30,186 bases of DNA from Caldilinea sp. CFX5 (GTDB lineage: Bacteria > Chloroflexota > Anaerolineae > Caldilineales > Caldilineaceae), in assembly GCA_021405325.1 (NCBI GenBank), contig QWII01000143.1:1-30186 (forward strand). The letters run 5' to 3'. Shown here piece by piece: positions 114 through 21,372 of this stretch. How positions within the stretch are numbered: position 1 is the first letter of the stretch; every line of letters begins with the position of its first letter. The notes beneath the pieces are model-generated. The model saw nothing but the letters and a program-made list of their open reading frames with translations. It had not been told where the DNA came from and did no database searches. Made by a program: the position numbers and the translations under genes.

Positions 114-3100
114 GTAGGAGGGGGTGCAGTCAATGCCCCAAACATTCACCCCCGGCAGGCAACCGACGCTCACGCCGAAGCCGGGGGGCAGGCGTCAACG
201 GGGCGCGCAGAGGGTGAAGTTGACCAAGTCACCCAAGCTGCGGCCGCGTCACCTTCTGTGACTACGCGCAAAATTATCGAGATCGAAGGGACGCTGCAAG
301 CGTTACTGGCAACCGTCCTCAAAATAGCGCCGGAGGACGTTGCCAAAAGCGCTTCCTTTATGAACCTGGGCATCGATTCGATGGACGCGCTCGATCTGGT
401 GCAAAAACTGGAAACTGTGGGCTTTCATGGCTTGCCGGCCACCCTTTTCTTCGAGTACCAAACCATCGCCGATCTGGCGCGTTACCTGGCAAAGCAGCCC
501 ACAACTATCGCCGGCTCTACGCCCCCGCCCGCTCCCGGCGCGCCTGGAAGGCAACCGGTGACTCGCCCCGGCTCGTTACAAACCACCGATGCAGCGGCGG
601 CGACCCGCCCTTTTCAGCCCTTGTGTAATCCGATTCAACGCGCCTTTGCCATCAACCACCGGCTCTACCCGGAACGCCCCGCCGTCGCCTTCCTACGGCA
701 GACCATTCACGGCGCCATTCAGATCCATTTGCTCCAACAGGCCGTCCAGCAGGTCGCCACTCGCCACCCACTTTTGCGCACCCGCTTCACCGTGAGCAAC
801 ACAGCGGATGTGCTGACGCCGACGATTTGCGCGCCTGATGAAGCGACGATCATCCCCCTCATTGAAACGGCGGCCAATAGCATTGGTCCTGGTCAGTTAG
901 CACAGTGGGAGGATGCGTTTGTCAATCGCCCCTTTGATCTCGCCAACGGTTGCCCCTGGCGCTTAGCGTTGGCAGCAGATTACGATCAGCCCGACCAGGG
1001 GCAGCTCCTCCTGGCAATCCATCACATGGCCGGCGATGCGTGGAGTCTGAGTTTGGTGGCCCATGAGCTTTGGGCATGTTACACCGCGCTCTGCCAGGGG
1101 CGCACCTTTGATCGGCCCATGCCGCCCAGCCCCTATCATGCGCAATTTGCCCACCAACAGCCTGAACCAACCGCCCTCACCTGGTGGCGACAGCAGTTAG
1201 TTCGCGGTACACCTGCGTTGCCCTTGCGACTGCCCTTTGATCATGACCCAGAAACGTTGCTGCCCGACGAGTGGGACAAAACACGTTACGCCGTCCATGC
1301 CACCCGCTTGACCGCCACCCAGAGCGCCGCCTTAACCCAACTAGCGGCTGACCAGAATCTCTCGCTTTTTCACCTGGTGCTGGCGCTCTATCTCCGCACG
1401 CTACAGCAGTGGACGCAAACAAGCAACCTCATTGTCAATGTCGCCGATGCCCAACGGCCGCCCCATCTGCCCGGCATCATGGCAATGGTTGGCTCCTTTG
1501 CCGATACGCTGCCGCTTGGGCTAGTGGTCGAACCGAGCGAAGCCCTCTTTGTCCTGGCGGAACGGGTTCGTCAAAACTGGTTAGCCATTCAACAACACAA
1601 AGCAGTCAGCAGCCTGGATCTAGTGCAGATCCTAGCGGAAGTTGCACAGACCAACGAGGGGAGTCAGCCGCGCCAAATCAGCCCCCTTGGTTTCAGCTTT
1701 GCCCGCTTTGAAGCCAATCCACCCGTTGATTGCCCGGTCAACATCCTCGAAATCTTTGGCCGCACCGCCACGCCGACCATGCGGCTCACCCTGGTCGGCT
1801 GGGAATTTGCCGGGGAACTGCACTTTTCGTGGAATTATGTCACGCCGCTCTTGCAGCCGGCAACGATTGCCGCGCTGGCGGCCCGCTTTGTCGATGAAAT
1901 CACCCACCTGTTAGGCGAACAACGCCCCACTCCACCGACGCCCGACCTAAACGATGCGCCAAACAGAGAGCGAGCAGCAGCACCATCTTCCGCGAAGGTT
2001 GAACCCGTCGCTCCCCCCCACCGCACCGACCTTCCCGGCAGATTAGCTCATCAACCGGCGCCGTTTACGCCAGTCACAGCGCTGGTGCAAGCGCAATGTG
2101 AGCGCACGCCGACAGCCATTGCCGTGTGGGAGAATGGCAACGCCCTTACCTATGGTGAACTCGACCGCCGTGCCGGCCAACTCGCCGCGGCGATTCATGC
2201 CCTGAATAGTGAACAAGCACCCGTCGGGTTATTAGCCGTTCCCGCAACCGCTGCCGTGGAATTGTTACTGGGCATTGCTAGAGCGGGCGCGGCTTGGGTT
2301 CCCCTCGATCCGGCCCATCCACCGGCGCGCCACGCCGATCAACTGGCGCAGGCAGGTGCAAGGCTACTCGTCTTCCCAATGGAGCTAGCCGCCACCGCTG
2401 AGGCCATCAAACCGGCAATGACAGGCGCTATCCAGCTTTTTTCTTTGACCGATCTGTTGCATCGTAGGGGCAAGATATATCTTGCCCCTACGATGCCGGA
2501 GCAGATCGCTTATATCATCTTCACCTCCGGCTCCACCGGTCGGCCCAAGGGGGCGCCGATCACCCACGAGGCGCTGGCAAACTATATCGGTTGGGCCGTG
2601 GACACCTTTGGCTATGGACCAGCCGACCGGGTGATGCAAGCAACCTCGCTTTGCTTTGACGCGTCGATCCGCCAGATTCTGGCGCCGCTGGTAACAGGGG
2701 GGACGGTTGTTCCTGTTGCACGCGCCCTTCTGAGCGATCCCCTAACGCTGCTCCACTTTCTTCAGGAAGGCCACATCACCATTTGGAGTTCGGTGCCGGC
2801 GCTTTGGGCGCGCTTAGTAAGTGCGTTGGAAAGCACTGTCACCACCGGCGCACCAGTACCACCATTGTCTGATTTGCGCTGGATTCAGGTCGGTGGAGAA
2901 GCGCTCTCGGCGCCGCTTGTCCGGCGCTGGTTTGACCTGATGGGCGACCGGCAGCGCATCGCCAACCTCTATGGCCCGACTGAGACGACGATCAATGCCA
3001 CCTGTTACATCCTGTCGAGCCGTCCAGCCGAGACAGAAACGCAAATTCCCATCGGCTATCCGATCCGTGGCGCGCAGCTTCAGGTCTGTGATGAGAATGG

Positions 3101-6100
3101 CCAACCTTGCCCAGCCGGTGCGATCGGCGAATTGTGGATTGGCGGCGTCGGTCTTTCACCGGGATATTTGTATGATCCCCAGCGGACAGCCGAGCGTTTC
3201 GTTGTCACGCCAACGGGCGAACGTTTCTATCGTAGCGGCGACCGGGTGCAGCAGCAGGCGGATGGCGCCCTACGCTTTCTGGGTCGGCTGGATGAACAGG
3301 TGAAAGTGCGGGGGTATCGCATTGAGTTGGGCGAAATCGAAGCAACCCTCAGTCAACACCCGGCTGTGCGCCTAGCGGCAGTCATTACGCGACCCGCCAA
3401 CGCAGACGAACAGATGTTGCTCGCCTACCTGGAATGCGCCGGCGCGCCGCCCACAGAGGAATCGGTGCGGCAATGGCTACAGAGCCGCTTGCCGGACTAT
3501 ATGTTGCCGCACCAGTTCTATGCCACGCCGCACTTGCCGCAGATGCCCAATGGCAAAATTGACCGGCAATGCTTGTTCAACGGCGCCATCGAAACGACAC
3601 CGTTGCCGCGCACCGGCCAGCGGAGTGCGCCGCAAACACCGACGGAGCAACGGCTGGCGCAGGTGTGGCGGGCGGTCTTGAAGCTGGATAGCAATGATGC
3701 CTTCATTGCGCGTGAAGATGACTTTTTTGCTCTGGGCGGCGATTCACTGCGGGCAATTCAGCTTTTTGTCGAGTTGGGCAAAGTGCGCCCGAATTTGCCC
3801 CGCGCGACCTATCTTTACCGCTACCGCACACTGGCTGCGTTGGCGCAGGCCCTCGACGCCTACCAACCGGCGCCCAGCCTGCCAACCGCCACACCGGCAG
3901 CCACCGATGAACCGTTCGGTGTCAGTCTGGCGCAGGCCGGTTTTTTGCTCGCCCGCGCCCTCCACGCAAAGCAGGCCACCACTTGGTGTGCGCGCTTCTG
4001 GTTGGAAGGATCGCTCCAGATTGAACACTTTCAGGAAGCAGTGCAGATGTTGGTGGCGCGCCATGCTATGTTGCGGGCGATCTTTCCAACGGCGGACGGT
4101 GAGCGGCCAACCCGTGCGCCCCAGCAGCGCATTCTGCCGCCGGATCGTCCCTTGCCGGTTCACTTTGTCGATTTACAAGCGCTCACTCCTGCTGAACAGC
4201 AAAGCGCGCTGGCTGAACAGTGGCAGCAGTTGCGCAACCGGCCATTTGACCCGACCCAGTGGCCCTTGATCGCGATGCACCTCTGCCGGCTGACACCCAC
4301 CGACCATCTCTGGCTGGTCGCTACCGATCACCTGATTGGCGATGGGTTGAGCGGCTGGCTCTTGGGCCAGGAGTTGTTTCAGCTTTATGACGCCTTGGTT
4401 GCCGGCCAGCCGCCGGCGTTACCGCCGCTCCGTAGCAGCTTCCGTGAGTATGTCGCCTTGCAGCAGCAGCGTGAACAACAGCCGGATCCGGCGTCTGCGC
4501 AATACTGGCGGCAAGTTTTCGCCACGCCCTATCAACCGCCTAAGCGAAGCGAACAGGGCAAGACAAACGATGGCGCGTGGGTGCAGCACAGCATCGACTT
4601 GGCCGCCACGACCGTCAAGCAATTGGAAGGCAAAGCGACGGCGATGGGGGTGACGCCCTATGAACTGTTGCTCACCCTCTTCTTCCGCCAGTTGCAGCGG
4701 TTGACCGGCCAGCATGACCTGATTGTCGGGTCGGCGCTGGCGGGGCGCGATGAACCGTTGCCCGACATCATGCGCATCTTTGGCGCCTTTGCCACCGCTT
4801 TGCCCTTGCGCGTACAACTGGCGGGGGAAAGCTGGGAAGAACAGACGCAGCAGGTGGCGCAGGCGTTTCACCTGGCTCGCGCCCATACCTTGTCGCCCCG
4901 CCGCATTGCCCAGGTGATGCACCCGCAGACGCCACTAGTCGCCGCGTTGGGCGCCCAGTTTCTCTTTAGCTATATGGATTTCAGTACGCTGGGGCCACTG
5001 CACAGCGCAACCTTGCGGGTGCGCTGGGACGCGTCCCAAACCGAGTTGCAACCACCCAGCCAGAGCGCCGATCTGGTGCTGACCGGGCGCAAACTGGACG
5101 ACCAATTGCGGCTGACCTTTACGGCCCCGGCAGTCGCCATGAGTGCGCAACAGATGCAAACGTTTGCTGACGGCTTTGCCCAAAATCTGCACGATTTGAC
5201 CGGTGATCACCAATCGCAGGCAATGTCGCCGAAAAATGCGACGCCTGTTGCTGCGCCCGCCTCGACCATTCATTTTAGCAGCAGGCCACTAGATGACGGC
5301 ACTGTAGGCAGTGGCGGCGCCAGGTTGGACACGGCGCTCATCGGCTATCTGCCACCCTTTGCCCAAATTCAGCCGATCCTTGAGCAAATTGGCATGAAAC
5401 TTGATGCGAACGGTGTGCGGCGACTGCTGTTCCCCGAACAGAGGCCGCGTTGGTTGGAACTGCTGGCAACGCCGCTGGGCCATTCCGGGCTGATCGCCAT
5501 TCCACGCTTTGCCGATGAGTTAGCCACATTACCCCATGGGCTATTGGGGCAAGCGATCCGGCAGGCGATTGGCGCTGCGACAACCTTGGGGGCGCGCTGT
5601 GTGTCGCTGGCCGGCATGTTACCGGCGCACACGCGCTATGGCTATGCCCTCCTGGAAGCCGATGAAAACGTTACGCAACCGGCGCTGACCACTGGTCATA
5701 GCACAACGGTAGTGGCTGTTGTCAAAACAGTGCAGGCGGCGCTAACAGCAACACAACAGGATCTGTCAACCTTGACTGTAGGTTGTTTAGGCATCGGCTC
5801 GATTGGCAGCGGAGCGCTCCACTTGTTGCTCACCACGGTGGGCCAGCCGGCGGCGCTGATCCTCTGTGATCTGGTCGGCAGTGGGGATCGGCTCCGTGCG
5901 CTGGCTGCCGACCTGTGTCAGAAATTTGACTACCGGGGCCAGGTGCGTATAATCGAAGTGGATGATCGCTTACCGGCGGAATTGTACATGGCTGATCTGC
6001 TGATCGGCGCGGCTAGTCGGCCCAACTTGTTGGAGGTGACGCGGCTGGCGCCGGGTAGCATTGTCGTTGACGATTCGTTTCCGGCCTGTCTGGATCTTGA

Positions 6101-6476
6101 CTATGCGATTGAACGAATGAGGACGGCGCAGGATCTGCTGGTGGTCGGTGGCGGGTTGTTAACCTGTGGCGCCGTGCAACGCACGCTCTATCTACCATTC
6201 TCCCAACCAATGCTGGCGCAACAGATCGCCGGGCAACTGCACGCCGACGCCATTGCCAGTTGTCAACTGGAAGCGTTACTCTGGTCAACTTGTCCTGATC
6301 TGCCCCTGACGCATGGCGTCGCGACCCTGGCGGGGGCGTTGGCCTATTGGCAAGTCGCCGCAACAAAGGGCATTACTGCTGCCCCGTTACATTTGCGCGA
6401 TTTCCGTATTACCGAGTCGTTGTTGCACCATCTGAAACAGATTATCAGGCAGCGACGACTTACCAAAGCGCCATAA
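1..6476 (+). CDS. Nonribosomal peptide synthetase, 5'-partial (PCP-C-A-PCP-C-reductase-like)
   Basis: Multidomain synthetase that activates an amino acid as AMP ester, loads it on a carrier and condenses it with an upstream intermediate. The first plausible internal start is GTG 258, but it has no Shine-Dalgarno, and codons in the same frame (phase from base 3) stay open to the left edge, so the gene probably begins outside. Numbering from 258: carrier 1 with LGIDS, S41; condensation 1 with HHMAGDAWS, H255/H256/D260; adenylation about 600-1110 with FTSGSTGRPKG, NLYGPTE from N903 and K1100 in NGKID; carrier 2 with LGGDS, S1163; condensation 2 with DHLIGDG, H1358/D1362; terminal domain about 1692-2065 with a Rossmann GIGSIG at 1845-1850. 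My manual GrsA-style specificity code is D-A-R-S-I-V-L-I-N-K; I assign no substrate. Terminal-domain identity (acyl-ACP reductase-like) is inferred. The MFS gene follows. Confidence 0.9.
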   Translation, partial: TVPPQLGKGTVDGATVPPQLGKGTVDGATVPPPSWGRVGGGAVNAPNIHPRQATDAHAEAGGQASTGRAEGEVDQVTQAAAASPSVTTRKIIEIEGTLQALLATVLKIAPEDVAKSASFMNLGIDSMDALDLVQKLETVGFHGLPATLFFEYQTIADLARYLAKQPTTIAGSTPPPAPGAPGRQPVTRPGSLQTTDAAAATRPFQPLCNPIQRAFAINHRLYPERPAVAFLRQTIHGAIQIHLLQQAVQQVATRHPLLRTRFTVSNTADVLTPTICAPDEATIIPLIETAANSIGPGQLAQWEDAFVNRPFDLANGCPWRLALAADYDQPDQGQLLLAIHHMAGDAWSLSLVAHELWACYTALCQGRTFDRPMPPSPYHAQFAHQQPEPTALTWWRQQLVRGTPALPLRLPFDHDPETLLPDEWDKTRYAVHATRLTATQSAALTQLAADQNLSLFHLVLALYLRTLQQWTQTSNLIVNVADAQRPPHLPGIMAMVGSFADTLPLGLVVEPSEALFVLAERVRQNWLAIQQHKAVSSLDLVQILAEVAQTNEGSQPRQISPLGFSFARFEANPPVDCPVNILEIFGRTATPTMRLTLVGWEFAGELHFSWNYVTPLLQPATIAALAARFVDEITHLLGEQRPTPPTPDLNDAPNRERAAAPSSAKVEPVAPPHRTDLPGRLAHQPAPFTPVTALVQAQCERTPTAIAVWENGNALTYGELDRRAGQLAAAIHALNSEQAPVGLLAVPATAAVELLLGIARAGAAWVPLDPAHPPARHADQLAQAGARLLVFPMELAATAEAIKPAMTGAIQLFSLTDLLHRRGKIYLAPTMPEQIAYIIFTSGSTGRPKGAPITHEALANYIGWAVDTFGYGPADRVMQATSLCFDASIRQILAPLVTGGTVVPVARALLSDPLTLLHFLQEGHITIWSSVPALWARLVSALESTVTTGAPVPPLSDLRWIQVGGEALSAPLVRRWFDLMGDRQRIANLYGPTETTINATCYILSSRPAETETQIPIGYPIRGAQLQVCDENGQPCPAGAIGELWIGGVGLSPGYLYDPQRTAERFVVTPTGERFYRSGDRVQQQADGALRFLGRLDEQVKVRGYRIELGEIEATLSQHPAVRLAAVITRPANADEQMLLAYLECAGAPPTEESVRQWLQSRLPDYMLPHQFYATPHLPQMPNGKIDRQCLFNGAIETTPLPRTGQRSAPQTPTEQRLAQVWRAVLKLDSNDAFIAREDDFFALGGDSLRAIQLFVELGKVRPNLPRATYLYRYRTLAALAQALDAYQPAPSLPTATPAATDEPFGVSLAQAGFLLARALHAKQATTWCARFWLEGSLQIEHFQEAVQMLVARHAMLRAIFPTADGERPTRAPQQRILPPDRPLPVHFVDLQALTPAEQQSALAEQWQQLRNRPFDPTQWPLIAMHLCRLTPTDHLWLVATDHLIGDGLSGWLLGQELFQLYDALVAGQPPALPPLRSSFREYVALQQQREQQPDPASAQYWRQVFATPYQPPKRSEQGKTNDGAWVQHSIDLAATTVKQLEGKATAMGVTPYELLLTLFFRQLQRLTGQHDLIVGSALAGRDEPLPDIMRIFGAFATALPLRVQLAGESWEEQTQQVAQAFHLARAHTLSPRRIAQVMHPQTPLVAALGAQFLFSYMDFSTLGPLHSATLRVRWDASQTELQPPSQSADLVLTGRKLDDQLRLTFTAPAVAMSAQQMQTFADGFAQNLHDLTGDHQSQAMSPKNATPVAAPASTIHFSSRPLDDGTVGSGGARLDTALIGYLPPFAQIQPILEQIGMKLDANGVRRLLFPEQRPRWLELLATPLGHSGLIAIPRFADELATLPHGLLGQAIRQAIGAATTLGARCVSLAGMLPAHTRYGYALLEADENVTQPALTTGHSTTVVAVVKTVQAALTATQQDLSTLTVGCLGIGSIGSGALHLLLTTVGQPAALILCDLVGSGDRLRALAADLCQKFDYRGQVRIIEVDDRLPAELYMADLLIGAASRPNLLEVTRLAPGSIVVDDSFPACLDLDYAIERMRTAQDLLVVGGGLLTCGAVQRTLYLPFSQPMLAQQIAGQLHADAIASCQLEALLWSTCPDLPLTHGVATLAGALAYWQVAATKGITAAPLHLRDFRITESLLHHLKQIIRQRRLTKAP
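2460..2495. repeat. Perfect 36-bp palindrome inside the NRPS adenylation domain
   Basis: The 18-base half-site CATCGTAGGGGCAAGATA is followed directly by its exact reverse complement. Being 36 bp it adds 12 codons in frame (about residues 735-746, HRRGKIYLAPTM), just before the conserved adenylation core motif FTSGSTGRPKG. The core GTAGGGGCAA/TTGCCCCTAC is also the inner arm of the intergenic element at 10106-10191, so this appears to be a genomic palindromic repeat that entered a gene. Confidence 0.85.
5330..6476 (+). other. Acyl-ACP-reductase-like C-terminal domain of the NRPS
   Basis: Domain feature, residues about 1692-2065 numbered from 258. From memory it aligns along its length with cyanobacterial aldehyde-forming acyl-ACP reductase (AAR): start ALIGYLPPFAQ against LIGHLTSLEQ, SLAGMLPAHT against ALGGFTSIIF, TTGHSTTVVAVVKTVQAAL against TTGNTHTAYVICRQVEAA, a nucleotide-binding GIGSIG at 1845-1850, ADLLIGAAS against ADFIVWVAS, and IASCQLEALLW against MFACFAEAMLL. 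This puts C2002 at the position of the AAR active-site cysteine. Known NRPS reductive release uses a different, extended-SDR thioester reductase domain. Inference: reductive off-loading of a carrier-bound acyl or peptidyl chain to an aldehyde. A different Rossmann fold without this chemistry remains possible. Confidence 0.6.
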
Positions 6477-6575
6477 CCCCCCCACGCGCGGCCACAAAGG
6501 CTACCCGGTGACTGGCGGTGAACGGGGCTGCTCGTTACTAACTTTGTCACTATTCAACCATCGGGGTCGGCCCCG

Positions 6576-6639
6576 TTCCTGGAAGAGGCAGGAACCATCT
6601 GGTCACCCGGAACGCGCGTTGCCCCTTCCTGGAAGGGGC
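6576..6639. repeat. Hairpins in the gap after the NRPS gene
   Basis: The 233-bp gap between the NRPS and MFS genes contains GTTCCTG/CAGGAAC at about 6576-6596 and the near-perfect palindrome GCCCCTTCC-T-GGAAGGGGC at 6621-6639. AACGGGGC (about 6519) also pairs with GCCCCGTT (about 6570). No T-tract follows, so I call them repeat hairpins with possible terminator activity. Confidence 0.4.
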
Positions 6640-6709
6640 CTCAGCCTGAATCGTCACCCAACTTTTTTACTTATTCCTGTGTAGTCACCAAACGAAAGCT
6701 CTTATCTCT

Positions 6710-7957
6710 ATGTCTATCCAAACCGTATCGACGGCTGTGCAACGGCGCTTAATCTTTGTTATCTTTCTGGCCCAGAGCATTATTGGCGCCGGGCAAATTC
6801 TCTCTTTTACCTTTCTGCCGATTGTGGCGACGGCGCTCACCGGCAATGAACGGCTGGCCGGCGTGCCGGCCACCTTGACGATGTTGGGGCGGGCGGTGGC
6901 CGCGTATCCGATCGGCTGGTTGATGGATAAAGCGGGGCGGCGGCTGGGGTTGTCCACAGGCTATTTCATTTCGGTACTGGGCGGTTTGTTCTGTGTGGCG
7001 GCGATTAACGGCGATCTCTTTTGGCTGCTCTGTCTGGGCGCAGCCTTTAATGGCGTGGCGCGCAGTTCGGGGGAACAAGCGCGTTTTGCCGCGGCGGAAA
7101 TTATGCCGCCCGATCGCCGCGCCAAGGCGATTGGTTGGATCGTCCTGGCCGGCACCGTCGGTGCGCTGGGCACGCCCTTTATTACCACACCGGCCGGGAC
7201 GCTGGCCGAAACGTATGGTCTGTCACGCTCATCCGGTCCCTATTTGATGGCCGGAATTTTGTCGGTGGCGGCGGCGTTGGTCATCTTTTTTCTGCTCCGC
7301 CCAGACCCCAAGCAGATTGGGCTGGCAGTGGCTGGTCAACACGGGTACAAAGCGGCGGCAGGCGCGGGTCGCCCGCTCCGCGAAATCTTCTCGACCACAC
7401 CGGTGATTGTCTCAACGATTGTGCTGGTGGTCAGCCAGTTGATCATGACCTTGATCATGGTGATCATGCCTTTGCACATGCACCACTTCGATCACCCCGA
7501 CAGTAACATCACCCTGGCGCTGACCGCCCACACCTTTGGCATGTTTGGCCTCTCCAGTCTGACCGGCTGGTTGATCGACCGCACCAGCCGTCATATTATG
7601 ATTGTGGTCGGGTCGCTGGTGCTGGCGTTCTCGGCCATGATCGCGCCGCTCTCGCCGGCGCTCTTCCCGGTGGCGTTGGCGCTCTTTTTGCTGGGGCTGG
7701 GCTGGAATTTCTGCTTTATCGCCGGCTCCTCGCTGCTCTCCGATGCCCTGGCGCCGGAGGAACGGGGTCGCGCGCAAGGGGCGAATGAGATGGTGGTGGC
7801 CGTGGCTGCCGGCATCGGCAGTTTGAGCAGCGGCTCGGTTTTTGCCACGGGCGGGATTATCTCGGTGAGCATTATGGGGCTGGTGGTTTCGCTTGGGTTG
7901 GCGGCAGTGGCGGCGTGGGCGATGCGACAGCAGGGTCGGGTGTTGGCGAGTTCATAA
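6710..7957 (+). CDS. MFS transporter
   Basis: Inner-membrane secondary transporter of the major facilitator superfamily, 415 residues with about twelve hydrophobic segments. A loop 2-3 motif GWLMDKAGRRLG is present, with a weaker second-half counterpart GWLIDRTSR. ATG 6710 is taken because it opens directly into the first transmembrane segment; the upstream purine stretch is weak. It lies 233 bp downstream of the NRPS gene on the same strand and ends at a hairpin (7962-8005). Inference from position: export of the NRPS product or self-protection. The sequence alone gives no substrate, and a general sugar or drug transporter role is equally possible. Confidence 0.85.
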   Translation: MSIQTVSTAVQRRLIFVIFLAQSIIGAGQILSFTFLPIVATALTGNERLAGVPATLTMLGRAVAAYPIGWLMDKAGRRLGLSTGYFISVLGGLFCVAAINGDLFWLLCLGAAFNGVARSSGEQARFAAAEIMPPDRRAKAIGWIVLAGTVGALGTPFITTPAGTLAETYGLSRSSGPYLMAGILSVAAALVIFFLLRPDPKQIGLAVAGQHGYKAAAGAGRPLREIFSTTPVIVSTIVLVVSQLIMTLIMVIMPLHMHHFDHPDSNITLALTAHTFGMFGLSSLTGWLIDRTSRHIMIVVGSLVLAFSAMIAPLSPALFPVALALFLLGLGWNFCFIAGSSLLSDALAPEERGRAQGANEMVVAVAAGIGSLSSGSVFATGGIISVSIMGLVVSLGLAAVAAWAMRQQGRVLASS

Positions 7958-12854: not shown

Positions 12855-13472
12855 TTAGCTGTTCTGGGGTTGGAATAGCACGCTTGTCTTGATCTGCAAG
12901 CCGGCCAGTATGGCAGAAGTGATCAATTCCTCGCCGGTGTACTGGCCGTGGAGGGCGTATTCGCCACGGGCGAGGGTATAAACCTCCACCGAACGAGTCT
13001 TGGTATCCACGATCCAATATTCGGCGACACCGGCTGCTTCGTAGGCGTCAAACTTAGTTGTACGATCCAGGCGAATGGAGCTAGGGGAGACGACTTCGAC
13101 AATAAGATCGGGCGCACCTTCAAAGATTTTAACACCGAAAGGTGGTTGGCGGGCAGCGCTGATATAGATAACATCCGGCTGCACTGGACGTGAAAGTTCA
13201 GAAAGGTGAACCTCAAACGGGGCGGGTACGACCAAGCCTAAAGCACGTTCACCAACATAAAGTTCTAGTTGAAACGCGACTTTAAAAGCAGCAAATTGAT
13301 GTTCAAGACTTGGTGCATTCGCCACGTAGAGGACTCCCTTAATGATTTCATAGCGCTTGCCATCATCCGGTAAACGCTGGTAGTCTTCATAACGCCACTC
13401 GCCCTGCACCGGCCAACCGTTTAGATCGTTCAGCGGCGTTGCACCAGTGGGCATTACCATTTGCATTGTCAT
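12855..13472 (-). CDS. Uma2 family endonuclease-like protein (DUF820)
   Basis: PD-(D/E)xK-fold protein of the Uma2 group, often annotated as an endonuclease but with no settled role. Visible core: PD of RPVQPDVIYI, E of DLIVEVVSPSS, K of RTTKFDAYEAAG and the diagnostic EYWIVD. I start at ATG 13472 (205 residues) because AAAGGAA precedes it; the frame is open to an ATG at 13514, which would add 14 cysteine-rich residues without a ribosome-binding site. It is a single gene upstream of the oxidoreductase on the same strand, separated by a long inverted repeat. Such genes occur in many copies in Chloroflexota and cyanobacteria; another is at 20575. Confidence 0.85.
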   Translation of the reverse strand: MTMQMVMPTGATPLNDLNGWPVQGEWRYEDYQRLPDDGKRYEIIKGVLYVANAPSLEHQFAAFKVAFQLELYVGERALGLVVPAPFEVHLSELSRPVQPDVIYISAARQPPFGVKIFEGAPDLIVEVVSPSSIRLDRTTKFDAYEAAGVAEYWIVDTKTRSVEVYTLARGEYALHGQYTGEELITSAILAGLQIKTSVLFQPQNS

Positions 13473-13568
13473 GGTTCGTTTCCTTTGTGCCATCAAACAG
13501 CAACATGGCGCCAATTGTCACAACTTTGTAGCTCAGTCTATCATTGGGCGGGCGAATGGTCAAGAGGA

Positions 13569-18166: not shown

Positions 18167-20377
18167 ATGTTCGTTTGCGTACCGATTCGATTTTTGCGAG
18201 CCTTACCGAGAGAAATGAGCGACAACATGATCCAAGAAACCGTGATTACCCCAACTTATACCCAGCGCCTCTTTGCCCATCTGCATCGCGGCGGACGTTA
18301 CGCCCACCTCTGGACCGATGCCGGTCACGCTTCCTACTGGTTCCGCGTGGACACGAACCAGCGACGGCGCGTACCCAAACGCTGGCTACAACACAACGTC
18401 TACTATTCTGTTCACCCGCTGTCACAAATTCCACCCCAGAACAGCAGCGGCAGCCGCGACCGGCGCTTTATCAGCAGCCAGACGGAGTACATCTGCGCCA
18501 TCAACACCCTCTTTGCCGAGTTTGACAGCAAGGATGCCGTTCTGCCGCTGGAATACGCGCCCTATCTGCCGGCCGGCTATCGGTTGATGAGCGTAGTAGA
18601 GAAGCACAACGCCGTGAAGGCTGCCAAAGAGACGCTCTTTTACCGGTCGCCGGAGCGCTTCAAAGCGCGCACCTTTCACCAACTGCGAACGCTACCCTAC
18701 CCGCCTAGTGTGATCGTTGATAGTGGCGGAGGCTACCATTGTGTACCACTGAATACTGAAATACTAACGCAAACTGGTTGGAAGAACTGGAAAGAAGTTC
18801 AACCTGGTGACACCGTACTCGGCTATGATCGGGAACAAGGTGTCATGGCTTGGACAACTATGCGTGCTAAAATTATGAAGGAAGCTGATAAGCTTGTTCG
18901 ACTTGGCAACGGTATATTTTCGGTGGTTTGTACACCGGAACATCAATGGGTTTGTCATGTTAAAGAGGGTCATCAACGTAGACGCTCCACACATAACCAA
19001 CTTGTTGCCACAGAAAAAATTTCCCGACGACATAAGGTTGTGTTGAGCGCACCTTTTACAAATACAAGACAACCCATACTGGTTAATCCGCAAGAAGCAG
19101 GCATTTTGGGGTGGCTTGCTACTGAGGGATCGATCACTGAACAGGTTCATATCAACCAAAGTGAACGTAAGTATGCAGATGAAATTCGTTCTTTATTAAA
19201 GGATGTACCCCATACAGAACGTTTCAGTCATGGCGAAACAGACATGGTGACGTGGAATCTCAACATCAATTGGTTTCGTGATCTCTGGCAACGGGCAGGA
19301 ATGACAGGAGGAAAACATGAAGCTGATTGGTGTAACTTTGTTCTTCATCTTTCTGATGAGGCGCGCAATGCTTTTCTAGATGCAGCCTTTAAGGGGGATG
19401 GCACTTATAACTATAACGGAAAAGTTATTTTTCAAAATCCCGGCAACATTGCTGATGCACTTAAGTTAGCCATTTTTTTGAGCGGATGCACACCGCTTAC
19501 TGGTTATACACAAAATAGACCTATCCAGATGATTCGATATGGAAAGCCTTTTGCCACTTGGAATCTTTCTGTTACGGATGTAGGGGAAGGCGCGGTTTGG
19601 TGTCCACAAACAGATTTGGGAACATGGGTAATGCGCCAAGGTGACACTATTTGTATTACAGGTAATTGTTACTGGCTCCTACGCGACACCGTGCCGCTTG
19701 ACGCCACCAATCGCAATGACGTACAGGTGATCCAGAATGGCTGGGTCAAGGTGGTAGGCGGTGATCCGGGGGCGGCGGATCTGCGGCGTGTATTGCGGGT
19801 GCCGGGGACCTTCAATTGCAAACCGGCCTTTGGCGACGAAGCCCCTCAGGTCAGCTTTGTCAAAGCCAACTTTGATCTGCTCTATGACTACCACCAACTG
19901 GAAGAAGTGGTCAATGATTGGCTCTTTGCCCAGCGCGCTCGTCATCGTCGCCGCGCCCGCCGCCAACCGACCGAGCAGGAGACCAACGATGTGCGCGCCC
20001 GGTTCAACCAGCAACAGTCGCTGGTCGATCTGCTGCGCCGTCATGGTTATCAGGTGAGCTATCAACATGGCGCGCAGACGCGGCTGGCGCGACCGGGGCG
20101 GGATCGCTTCCACACCTCCGTCACCGTCTTTGCCGCCCACGGCGATGTGCCGGAGCGTTCGGTGCACTTTAGCACTAATGACCCGCTCTACAGCGCCGAA
20201 CGGGTCAACGAACAGACCGGCTTGTTGCGGCGCCGGCTCTATGACGCCTTTGCGGTCTACGCCCTGCTCGATCATGGTGGCGACTGGCAGGCCGCTTTTC
20301 GGGCTGCGGCCAAAGCGGTGGAAACACACACTGACGGTGGCGTGAGTTGGCAGGAATCCCAGGCAGATAAGGTATAA
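18167..20377 (+). CDS. Primase-polymerase (AEP-type) precursor interrupted by an intein
   Basis: The 736-residue precursor has two host parts around an intein at 192-500; splicing would leave about 427 residues. Host motifs fit an archaeo-eukaryotic-type primase: the acidic strand LFAEFDSKD (E118, D120, D123), the SGGGYH motif with H191, and a downstream DLRRVLRVPGTFNCKP like the family's R-x-P-G-T-x-N-x-K. Such enzymes make primers or extend DNA and are common on plasmids and phages. After splicing the active-site strand reads VIVDSGGGYH-CYWLL. The C-terminal 200 residues contain an Arg-rich stretch (RARHRRRARRQ) and are not recognised. No helicase or integrase is adjacent. ATG 18215 (MSDNMIQET) may be the true start, since the promoter sits only 9 bp before ATG 18167. 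Confidence 0.8.
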   Translation: MFVCVPIRFLRALPREMSDNMIQETVITPTYTQRLFAHLHRGGRYAHLWTDAGHASYWFRVDTNQRRRVPKRWLQHNVYYSVHPLSQIPPQNSSGSRDRRFISSQTEYICAINTLFAEFDSKDAVLPLEYAPYLPAGYRLMSVVEKHNAVKAAKETLFYRSPERFKARTFHQLRTLPYPPSVIVDSGGGYHCVPLNTEILTQTGWKNWKEVQPGDTVLGYDREQGVMAWTTMRAKIMKEADKLVRLGNGIFSVVCTPEHQWVCHVKEGHQRRRSTHNQLVATEKISRRHKVVLSAPFTNTRQPILVNPQEAGILGWLATEGSITEQVHINQSERKYADEIRSLLKDVPHTERFSHGETDMVTWNLNINWFRDLWQRAGMTGGKHEADWCNFVLHLSDEARNAFLDAAFKGDGTYNYNGKVIFQNPGNIADALKLAIFLSGCTPLTGYTQNRPIQMIRYGKPFATWNLSVTDVGEGAVWCPQTDLGTWVMRQGDTICITGNCYWLLRDTVPLDATNRNDVQVIQNGWVKVVGGDPGAADLRRVLRVPGTFNCKPAFGDEAPQVSFVKANFDLLYDYHQLEEVVNDWLFAQRARHRRRARRQPTEQETNDVRARFNQQQSLVDLLRRHGYQVSYQHGAQTRLARPGRDRFHTSVTVFAAHGDVPERSVHFSTNDPLYSAERVNEQTGLLRRRLYDAFAVYALLDHGGDWQAAFRAAAKAVETHTDGGVSWQESQADKV
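18740..19666 (+). mobile_element. Intein with LAGLIDADG homing endonuclease in the primase
   Basis: 309 residues, C192 to N500 of the precursor. N-terminal splicing block: CVPLNTEILTQTGWKNWKEV, with the usual PGDTVLGYD. Block B is CTPEHQW. Two endonuclease motifs, LGWLATEGS (E320) and FLDAAFKGDG (D411), keep their acidic residues. The end reads WCPQTDLGTWV ... ICITGN followed by C501 as the +1 nucleophile; the penultimate residue is Gly rather than the common His. The intein DNA is visibly more AT-rich than both flanking extein parts, which suggests separate, fairly recent arrival. It lies directly after the catalytic His191, as expected for an element that targets conserved sites. Confidence 0.92.
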
Positions 20378-20574: not shown

Positions 20575-21372
20575 ATGACAACGGTAGCGCAACATGATCT
20601 GCTTGAACGAACAGCACACCAACCCACTGAACCTGATTGGGAGCGCGGCTGGCGTTACGAAACAATCCAACTGGTGGATGGCAAAGAGGAGTTGGTGCGC
20701 ATTCCCCTCACCGATGAAGAGGTCCTTCATCCACAAGAAGGATATATTATGCCCGAACGTACATATCATGAAACGATCTGTCGCGATCTCAGCGATATGC
20801 TGCTGATGCGCTATAAAGATCAAGTTGAAATGGCCGTTTTTCATGATTTGAGCTTTGAGTGGGACAAACCTGACCTCAAGGACCATGCGCCTGACATTGC
20901 CATTGTACCCCATGTGCATGACCGTGATGCTGATCGCGAGAAGTTCATCGTCGCCGAAGAGAAGACACGCCCGCTGTTAATTATTGAAGTTGTTTCACCG
21001 AAGACGCGTAACAATGATCGATCCACCAAGGTCAAGCAGTATGCACGAGCAGGTGTGCAAGAGTATCTTTATATTGACCATTGGACGCGCAAGGGACAGG
21101 AGATTTGGGAAGTTGTCGGTTTTCGGCTGGAAGAAGGACAATATGTGCCCCTTGTACCGGACGAAGATGGCGCAATCTACTGCCGAAGCGTAGGCTTGCG
21201 CATTGGTATTGAAAACGGTAAGGTGTGGGTCGAAGATGCCGAAACCGGCCGGGATCTGCTTACACCCTTGGCTATACAACAGGCCCTACATGTGGCGGAA
21301 GAAGCGCGCTTCGGCTGCTCTGCGCGCATTGCCGAATTAGAAGCACAAATGCGAGCGTTAAAAGGTGAATAG
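20575..21372 (+). CDS. Uma2 family endonuclease-like protein (DUF820)
   Basis: PD-(D/E)xK-fold protein, 265 residues. Core residues: PD in HAPDIAIVP, E in LLIIEVVSPKT, K in STKVKQYARAGVQEYLYID. The N-terminal extension (YETIQLVDGKEELVRIPLTDEEVLHPQEG) and a C-terminal coiled-coil-like tail (ARIAELEAQMRALKGE) are the longer form seen in multi-copy Uma2 families. GAGGAG is well placed before the ATG. A strong terminator follows at 21407-21450, so it is a single-gene unit. Function of the family is unresolved; nuclease activity is assumed from the fold. Confidence 0.87.
   Translation: MTTVAQHDLLERTAHQPTEPDWERGWRYETIQLVDGKEELVRIPLTDEEVLHPQEGYIMPERTYHETICRDLSDMLLMRYKDQVEMAVFHDLSFEWDKPDLKDHAPDIAIVPHVHDRDADREKFIVAEEKTRPLLIIEVVSPKTRNNDRSTKVKQYARAGVQEYLYIDHWTRKGQEIWEVVGFRLEEGQYVPLVPDEDGAIYCRSVGLRIGIENGKVWVEDAETGRDLLTPLAIQQALHVAEEARFGCSARIAELEAQMRALKGE

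Follow-up and report, generated by a model that had tools for sequence, protein, structure and literature searches.

A terminal condensation domain and an acyl-ACP-reductase-like domain form a candidate reductive release end in a Caldilinea nonribosomal peptide synthetase

We analyzed a 30,186-nucleotide stretch of Caldilinea sp. CFX5 (contig QWII01000143.1), referred to below as the window, with a focus on the nonribosomal peptide synthetase (NRPS) gene at its 5′ edge. The encoded protein ends in a domain resembling acyl-acyl carrier protein reductase (AAR), and a condensation (C) domain stands between this domain and the last carrier (T) domain. The best explanation of this architecture, and in our judgement a probable one, is NADH-dependent reductive release of the chain to an aldehyde by the AAR-like domain; that the terminal C domain (C2) takes an active part is proposed with less confidence. 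In the predicted model the terminal domain has the AAR fold, and its cysteine, dinucleotide loop and Cys-x-x-Glu signature are conserved. A preceding sequence-only reading had recognized the fusion of an NRPS frame to an AAR-type terminal domain, which we confirm; it had overlooked the C domain directly in front, the most distinctive feature of the T-C-AAR branch described here.

Domain organization of the NRPS gene

The gene is truncated at the 5′ edge of the window, with a reading frame that is already open at base 3 and closes with a stop at 6476. At its cut-offs, Pfam recovered two PP-binding, two Condensation and one AMP-binding domain in the protein and gave no match across the final ~380 residues. 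The borders of the order T-C-A-T-C-AAR (A, adenylation) were set with profiles built in this analysis, the first T being taken from Pfam:

291-488 (+), T1 carrier domain; PF00550 at residues 97-162, attachment Ser in LGIDSMD (366-386)
627-1925 (+), C1 condensation domain; PF00668 (two stretches in the protein), profile boundaries, HHMAGDA at 1020-1040
2073-3584 (+), A adenylation domain; PF00501, PF13193, TIGR01733 above its cut-off, code D-A-R-S-I-V-L-I-N by motif anchors
3654-3860 (+), T2 carrier domain; PF00550 and profile, attachment Ser in LGGDSLR (3732-3752)
3918-5234 (+), C2 terminal condensation domain; PF00668 at residues 1307-1739, terminal-C clade, motif DHLIGDG at 4326-4346
5331-6473 (+), AAR-like terminal domain, reductive-release candidate; PDB sequence matches, AF2 model, fold searches, profile start at about 5334
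5688-5708 (+), TTGHSTT motif; His in 118/118 long proteins
5790-5807 (+), GIGSIG dinucleotide loop; all three Gly in 118/118 long proteins
5868-5870 (+), Asp closing the second Rossmann strand (LCDL); D in 116/118 long proteins
6066-6083 (+), VDDSFP motif; DDS in 118/118 long proteins
6258-6275 (+), SCQLEA; candidate catalytic Cys at 6261-6263 and Glu at 6270-6272 (Cys-x-x-Glu)

At the record start (1-99), two exact 42-base tandem copies are followed by 15 bases of a third; the copies are in frame with the NRPS and encode the 14-residue unit TVPPQLGKGTVDGA. This repeat may be the cause of the contig end at window base 1.

Fold and conserved residues of the terminal domain

As judged from the AF2 model and fold searches, the AAR fold spans the whole terminal domain. 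AAR-type structures scored best, as the sequence-only reading had anticipated when it favored this fold over that of a short-chain dehydrogenase/reductase (SDR), and no SDR family matched. PF07993 and TIGR01746, which we take to be the SDR thioester-reductase families, were absent from the one Pfam and three NCBIfam matches of the domain (E up to 1). An SDR reductase domain was thus ruled out. The NCBIfam matches all lay far under their cut-offs (PigE, 48.2 of 850 bits; acyl-ACP reductase, 19.2 of 449.7; SbnB, 15 of 326.9), and by its profile score the domain is AAR-like, yet not AAR by the TIGR04058 cut-off. Since no Pfam cut-off was reached either, annotation that relied on these libraries would leave the NRPS with no visible release domain.

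The motifs were followed in a set of 118 long proteins that counts the window protein (P0002) along with 117 homologues. The set came from a search restricted by protein length and shared words, so that its split by C-terminal architecture (T-C-AAR in 110, T-AAR in 7, and P0078 with a ketosynthase (KS) and a partial acyltransferase (AT) between carrier and AAR) is not a census. The cysteine, nucleotide loop and TTGH motif named in the sequence-only reading all proved to be conserved in this set. The Cys column holds Cys in 116/118 proteins, P0009 and P0074 being gapped. In the window this Cys aligns with C294 of AAR, and a Glu follows at +3 (C-Q-L-E vs. C294-F-A-E297 in PDB 6jzu); the placement rests on profile alignments to PigE and to the carmabin domain discussed below, the AAR profile alignment having ended at residue 251. 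The +3 Glu was found in 108 long proteins: in P0078 and, among the 108 T-C-AAR proteins readable here, in 107. The eight readable proteins without it were P0109, a T-C-AAR protein with Gly, and all seven T-AAR proteins, six of which have Ser and one (P0106) Ala. Among 69 short homologues, a crude pattern gave CxxE in 59 and another reading in three, with seven giving no reading. The Asp closing strand 2 makes NADH the predicted cofactor, in preference to NADPH. Of the long homologues with a named organism, P0008 (Caldilineaceae bacterium) is the closest, at 59% identity across the AAR domain; this by itself makes a Chloroflexota origin of the window probable.

The terminal C domain

In the window protein, a 439-residue C domain separates the AAR domain from the last carrier. 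A tree was built from 30 terminal and 32 internal C domains of 35 of the 118 proteins, after dropping C pieces of 300 residues or less. The terminal C domains came out as a single clade (100/99), recovered in all of 200 bootstrap trees. Because this sampled clade stands apart from the internal C domains, the idea that C2 arose by recent duplication of C1 was rejected. Both catalytic residues, the second His and the Asp of HHxxxDG (DHLIGDG in the window), were present in 110/110 terminal C domains, a count that excludes P0078, where a KS-AT stretch occupies this place. Mean pairwise identity was 0.476 for the AAR domain, 0.385 for the terminal C and 0.404 for the internal C (89 proteins, 1,500 pairs); the terminal C retains its motif and is overall not unusually conserved. 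Several subclades are common to the C2 and AAR trees.

The arrangement recurs at the level of genome loci, which were counted as 80 because L081 duplicates part of L001. T-C-AAR was found at 73 of them, C-C-C-AAR at one, C-AAR at two and AAR alone at four; a carrier directly before AAR was seen at none of the 80. A joint model of C2 and AAR (851 residues) predicted both domains well with a low-confidence linker and a pTM of 0.54, so that no fixed arrangement of the two can be claimed, and a rigid C2-AAR didomain was not upheld.

Relation to known systems

The top PDB match is titled "TAD from Carmabin Biosynthetic Pathway" (9e4s, 9e4u, 9e4x, 9e50, 9e56). The titles of these entries mention NADH, NAD and a disulfide of Cys2238 with dephospho-CoA, and do not spell out TAD. 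We infer that it stands for terminal amidation domain, because the hectoramide B paper proposes amidation and names carmabin A as another terminal amide (PMC10949194, in the text available). According to that text, the HcaD domain that follows the peptidyl carrier protein (PCP) is 83.5% identical to that of VatR and is believed to offload the chain by terminal amidation; ammonolysis is hypothesized there, and mechanism and enzymology are stated to be unstudied. The carmabin TAD is NRPS-fused, has the same fold as the window domain (TM 0.90, 28% identity) and shares with it the Cys, the TTGH motif and the NAD(H) site. It differs in having GCAFSA and SLTG, like the T-AAR proteins, where the window has SCQLEA and SLAG, in belonging to a separate clade, and in its proposed product, a terminal amide. 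In VatR and HcaD the terminal domain directly follows the PCP (PMC10949194, available text); in the window a C domain lies between.

AAR itself (TIGR04058; PDB 6jzq, 6jzu, 6jzy, 6jzz) shares the fold and, in C294-F-A-E297, the Cys-x-x-Glu of the window domain. It is free-standing, acts on fatty-acyl substrates and uses NADPH; in the available text of PMC7089970 the acyl group is moved to C294 and then reduced by NADPH to the aldehyde. At the end of strand 2 it has T-A-R-N where the window has Asp. The N-terminal reductase domain of PigE (prodigiosin; PDB 4ppm) is also alike (profile E 4.7e-15; Cys-x-x-Glu as C-M-A-E); it lies outside any NRPS, and its PDB name is that of an aminotransferase. 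PigE reduces a thioester, as the accessible part of PMC8341465 states. The SDR-type R/TD domains of NRPSs share the end-of-line position and probable reductive release, and differ in fold.

The sequence-only reading had regarded an AAR-type fusion as an unusual release route. This did not hold, as an NRPS-fused carmabin domain of the same fold has been in the PDB since February 2025. Because the carmabin example is already solved, the NRPS-AAR fusion as such is known; the window belongs to a large C-domain-bearing CxxE branch of it, for which the literature search turned up no product. Neither the carmabin TAD structures nor a T-C-AAR synthase was the subject of any paper among the matches listed in that search, whose coverage excluded most subscription journals and so does not prove that no such paper exists.

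In a 40-row tree (34 of the 118 long and 3 of the 69 short proteins, 3 PDB sequences; AAR and PigE as outgroup), the carmabin TAD and the seven T-AAR proteins formed one clade (100/98), and the window AAR domain fell outside it. The clade was nested within the spread of T-C-AAR proteins, which made one group in 0/200 bootstrap trees. Nodes near it reached only 80-88 bootstrap, ten forks were open and the outgroup branches were very long; the order of loss read from the tree is therefore no more than a suggestion.

Some members of the survey have further unusual features. The T-AAR-type NRPSs P0103 (Chromobacterium vaccinii) and P0110 have A domains apparently interrupted by large inserts; in P0103 one gap holds a luciferase-like monooxygenase and the other a nitroreductase-family domain. 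In P0081 (a Planctomycetes record) the T-C-AAR end stands alone, with no A domain, and glycosyltransferase domains are fused on its upstream side.

Proposed release reaction and alternatives

In the reductive release that we favor, the acyl-aminoacyl chain would move from T2 onto Cys2002 in the AAR domain to form a thioester there; NADH at the GIGSIG loop would donate a hydride, and the aldehyde would depart. C2, with its conserved catalytic His and Asp, may act on the chain or on the released aldehyde, e.g., by cyclization or coupling, a step that we put forward with less confidence; the end product could then be something other than the free aldehyde. Saframycin biosynthesis offers examples of C domains with aldehyde substrates. 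The aldehyde-forming release of the sequence-only reading is plausible and has the support of the Cys-x-x-Glu signature; the function proposed for the related carmabin-type domain is amidation. Several further observations weigh against reductive release. The TIGR04058 cut-off is missed (19.2 vs. 449.7 bits), P0109 is a T-C-AAR protein without the +3 Glu, and no fixed C2-AAR geometry is predicted (pTM 0.54). The carrier-C-reductase order is, to our knowledge, unlike T-R release ends. The T-C-AAR branch has no known activity, product or substrate, and the nearest solved homologue, the carmabin TAD, is described via its pathway relatives as amidating.

That the terminal domain might itself be a TAD releasing a primary amide is suggested by the best match, by sequence and fold, being the carmabin TAD, by the TTGH, DDS and strand-2 Asp common to both, and by the terminal amidation proposed for the homologous VatR and HcaD ends (PMC10949194, available text). 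The reaction could even be redox-neutral, with the thioester taken to the aldehyde, ammonia added and the product re-oxidized by the same NAD, although this is a guess. The TAD and the seven carrier-AAR proteins, however, form the separate clade noted above, these seven have no C domain, and across the group the Glu is replaced by Ser or Ala and the SLAG of the window by SLTG, TLTG or ALTG. Amidation by the TAD is moreover deduced, in the source text available, from product structures and not from enzymology. We therefore regard amide release by the window protein as unlikely. C domains that form off-loading bonds exist, and the terminal C could in principle be the true release catalyst, joining the T2-bound chain to an amine or alcohol that is free or carried in trans, with the AAR domain left to act either in trans, on a different thioester, or on the product itself. 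The single clade and intact HHxxxDG-type motif of the terminal C in 110/118 long proteins would agree with this, and the BurF C domain makes an ester in a line ending in a reductase (PMC12304814, available text). The available portions of the malleicyprol BurF and Nostoc megasynthase papers, both possible parallels, describe no AAR-type domain. Against release by C2, no carrier domain follows it to present a thioester to the AAR domain, and among 13 neighbor proteins from 7 loci, a small sample, there was no free carrier and one AMP-binding enzyme; we hold this explanation to be improbable. Finally, the AAR-like domain might have lost catalysis and serve a structural or docking role only. Nothing direct favors this, although a T-C-AAR end is odd for a simple reductase, and the (near-)invariance of the His, Asp-Asp-Ser, glycine loop and Cys over 118 sequences, despite a mean identity of 0.476 (89 of them), makes it very hard to credit.

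A broader reading, offered tentatively, is that C-AAR is a distinct ancient release module in which an active terminal C and a Cys/NADH reductase work on the same chain, first by reduction and then by cyclization or coupling of the aldehyde through the C domain, that one-gene polyketide synthase (PKS)-NRPS lines in several phyla load the same unusual monomer, and that the cyanobacterial amidating TADs are an offshoot that lost the C domain and the Glu. If so, a whole family of related products is still to be discovered. The CxxE/CxxS split tracks the presence or absence of the C domain and offers a simple test of how aldehyde and amide formers may have diverged.

Assembly lines, distribution and predicted monomer

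P0004-P0006 and P0008 have KS and ketoreductase (KR) domains in addition to T-C-A-T-C-AAR, in P0006 in the order KS-KR-T-C-A-T-C-AAR. We read the window protein as the downstream section of a PKS-NRPS line of this kind. In Streptomyces, L082 and L084 are complete frames of 4,098 and 4,103 residues with the order acyl-AMP ligase-T-KS-AT-KR-T-C-A-T-C-AAR, and L083 (4,367 residues) has the same carrier/C/A order. The AAR domain matched in 26 of 150 sampled Streptomyces genomes, at one place each (E up to 1e-30), the genus being that of genome G002, which contains L010 and bears the title Streptomyces griseus. Twenty of the matches were in frames of 3,960-4,592 residues and six in shorter ones of 165-2,231. 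By record name, T-C-AAR proteins also occur in Caldilineaceae (P0008), Melainabacteria (P0055), Planctomycetes (P0081) and Pseudomonadota (P0113). If reductive release is right, about one in six of the sampled Streptomyces genomes has such a terminus, in most cases as part of a single giant synthase gene whose monomer hardly varies. The product could then be predicted in outline, as an acyl-PKS unit joined to one amino acid and reduced, and tested by single-gene expression.

Motif anchors in GrsA numbering gave the specificity residues of 106 A domains, of which P0078 and P0093 were set aside as N-terminal acyl-ligases. The remaining 104 codes started with D-A-R (90), G-G-R or G-A-R (13) or D-A-S-R (one, P0013), with Arg at the third position in 103/104. 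The dominant codes were DARSVVLIN (45) and DARSIVLIN (17, including the window and P0015 from Streptomyces griseus), and that of the Melainabacteria record P0055 was DARSVLLIN. The α-aminoadipate codes of ACV synthetase and Lys2 also have Arg at the third position, and this analogy weakly suggests a monomer with an acidic side chain. A text search of the literature for the code strings found no paper.

Clustering of neighbor genes over the 80 loci was swamped by antisense open reading frames (ORFs) of GC-rich DNA, and after crude gene calling no neighbor cluster extended beyond 15/80 loci. Nine of the 13 scanned neighbor proteins had a family match (VWA_CoxE, AAA_5, SIS, luciferase-like, phosphoesterase, MHYT, FAD oxidoreductase, S11 peptidase, AMP-binding), and no pathway for a product was apparent among the 13.

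Other features of the window

The next gene downstream of the NRPS is the following:

6710-7957 (+), MFS transporter; PF07690

From its adjacency alone, the transporter is a possible exporter. Between the two genes, at 6520-6690, repeat-like stretches (TTCCTGGAAG...) were noted by eye, possibly a terminator or a repeat element.

Farther downstream, a 736-residue ORF at 18167-20377 (+) resembles a RepB-type primase interrupted by an intein. Its matches were all under the curated cut-offs (RepB_primase, E 0.0033; Hint, E 0.048; LAGLIDADG_3, E 0.17), and an NCBIfam scan gave none; by eye, the host parts join at ...SGGGYH / CYWLL... Two Uma2-family genes lie at 12855-13514 (-) and 20575-21372 (+).
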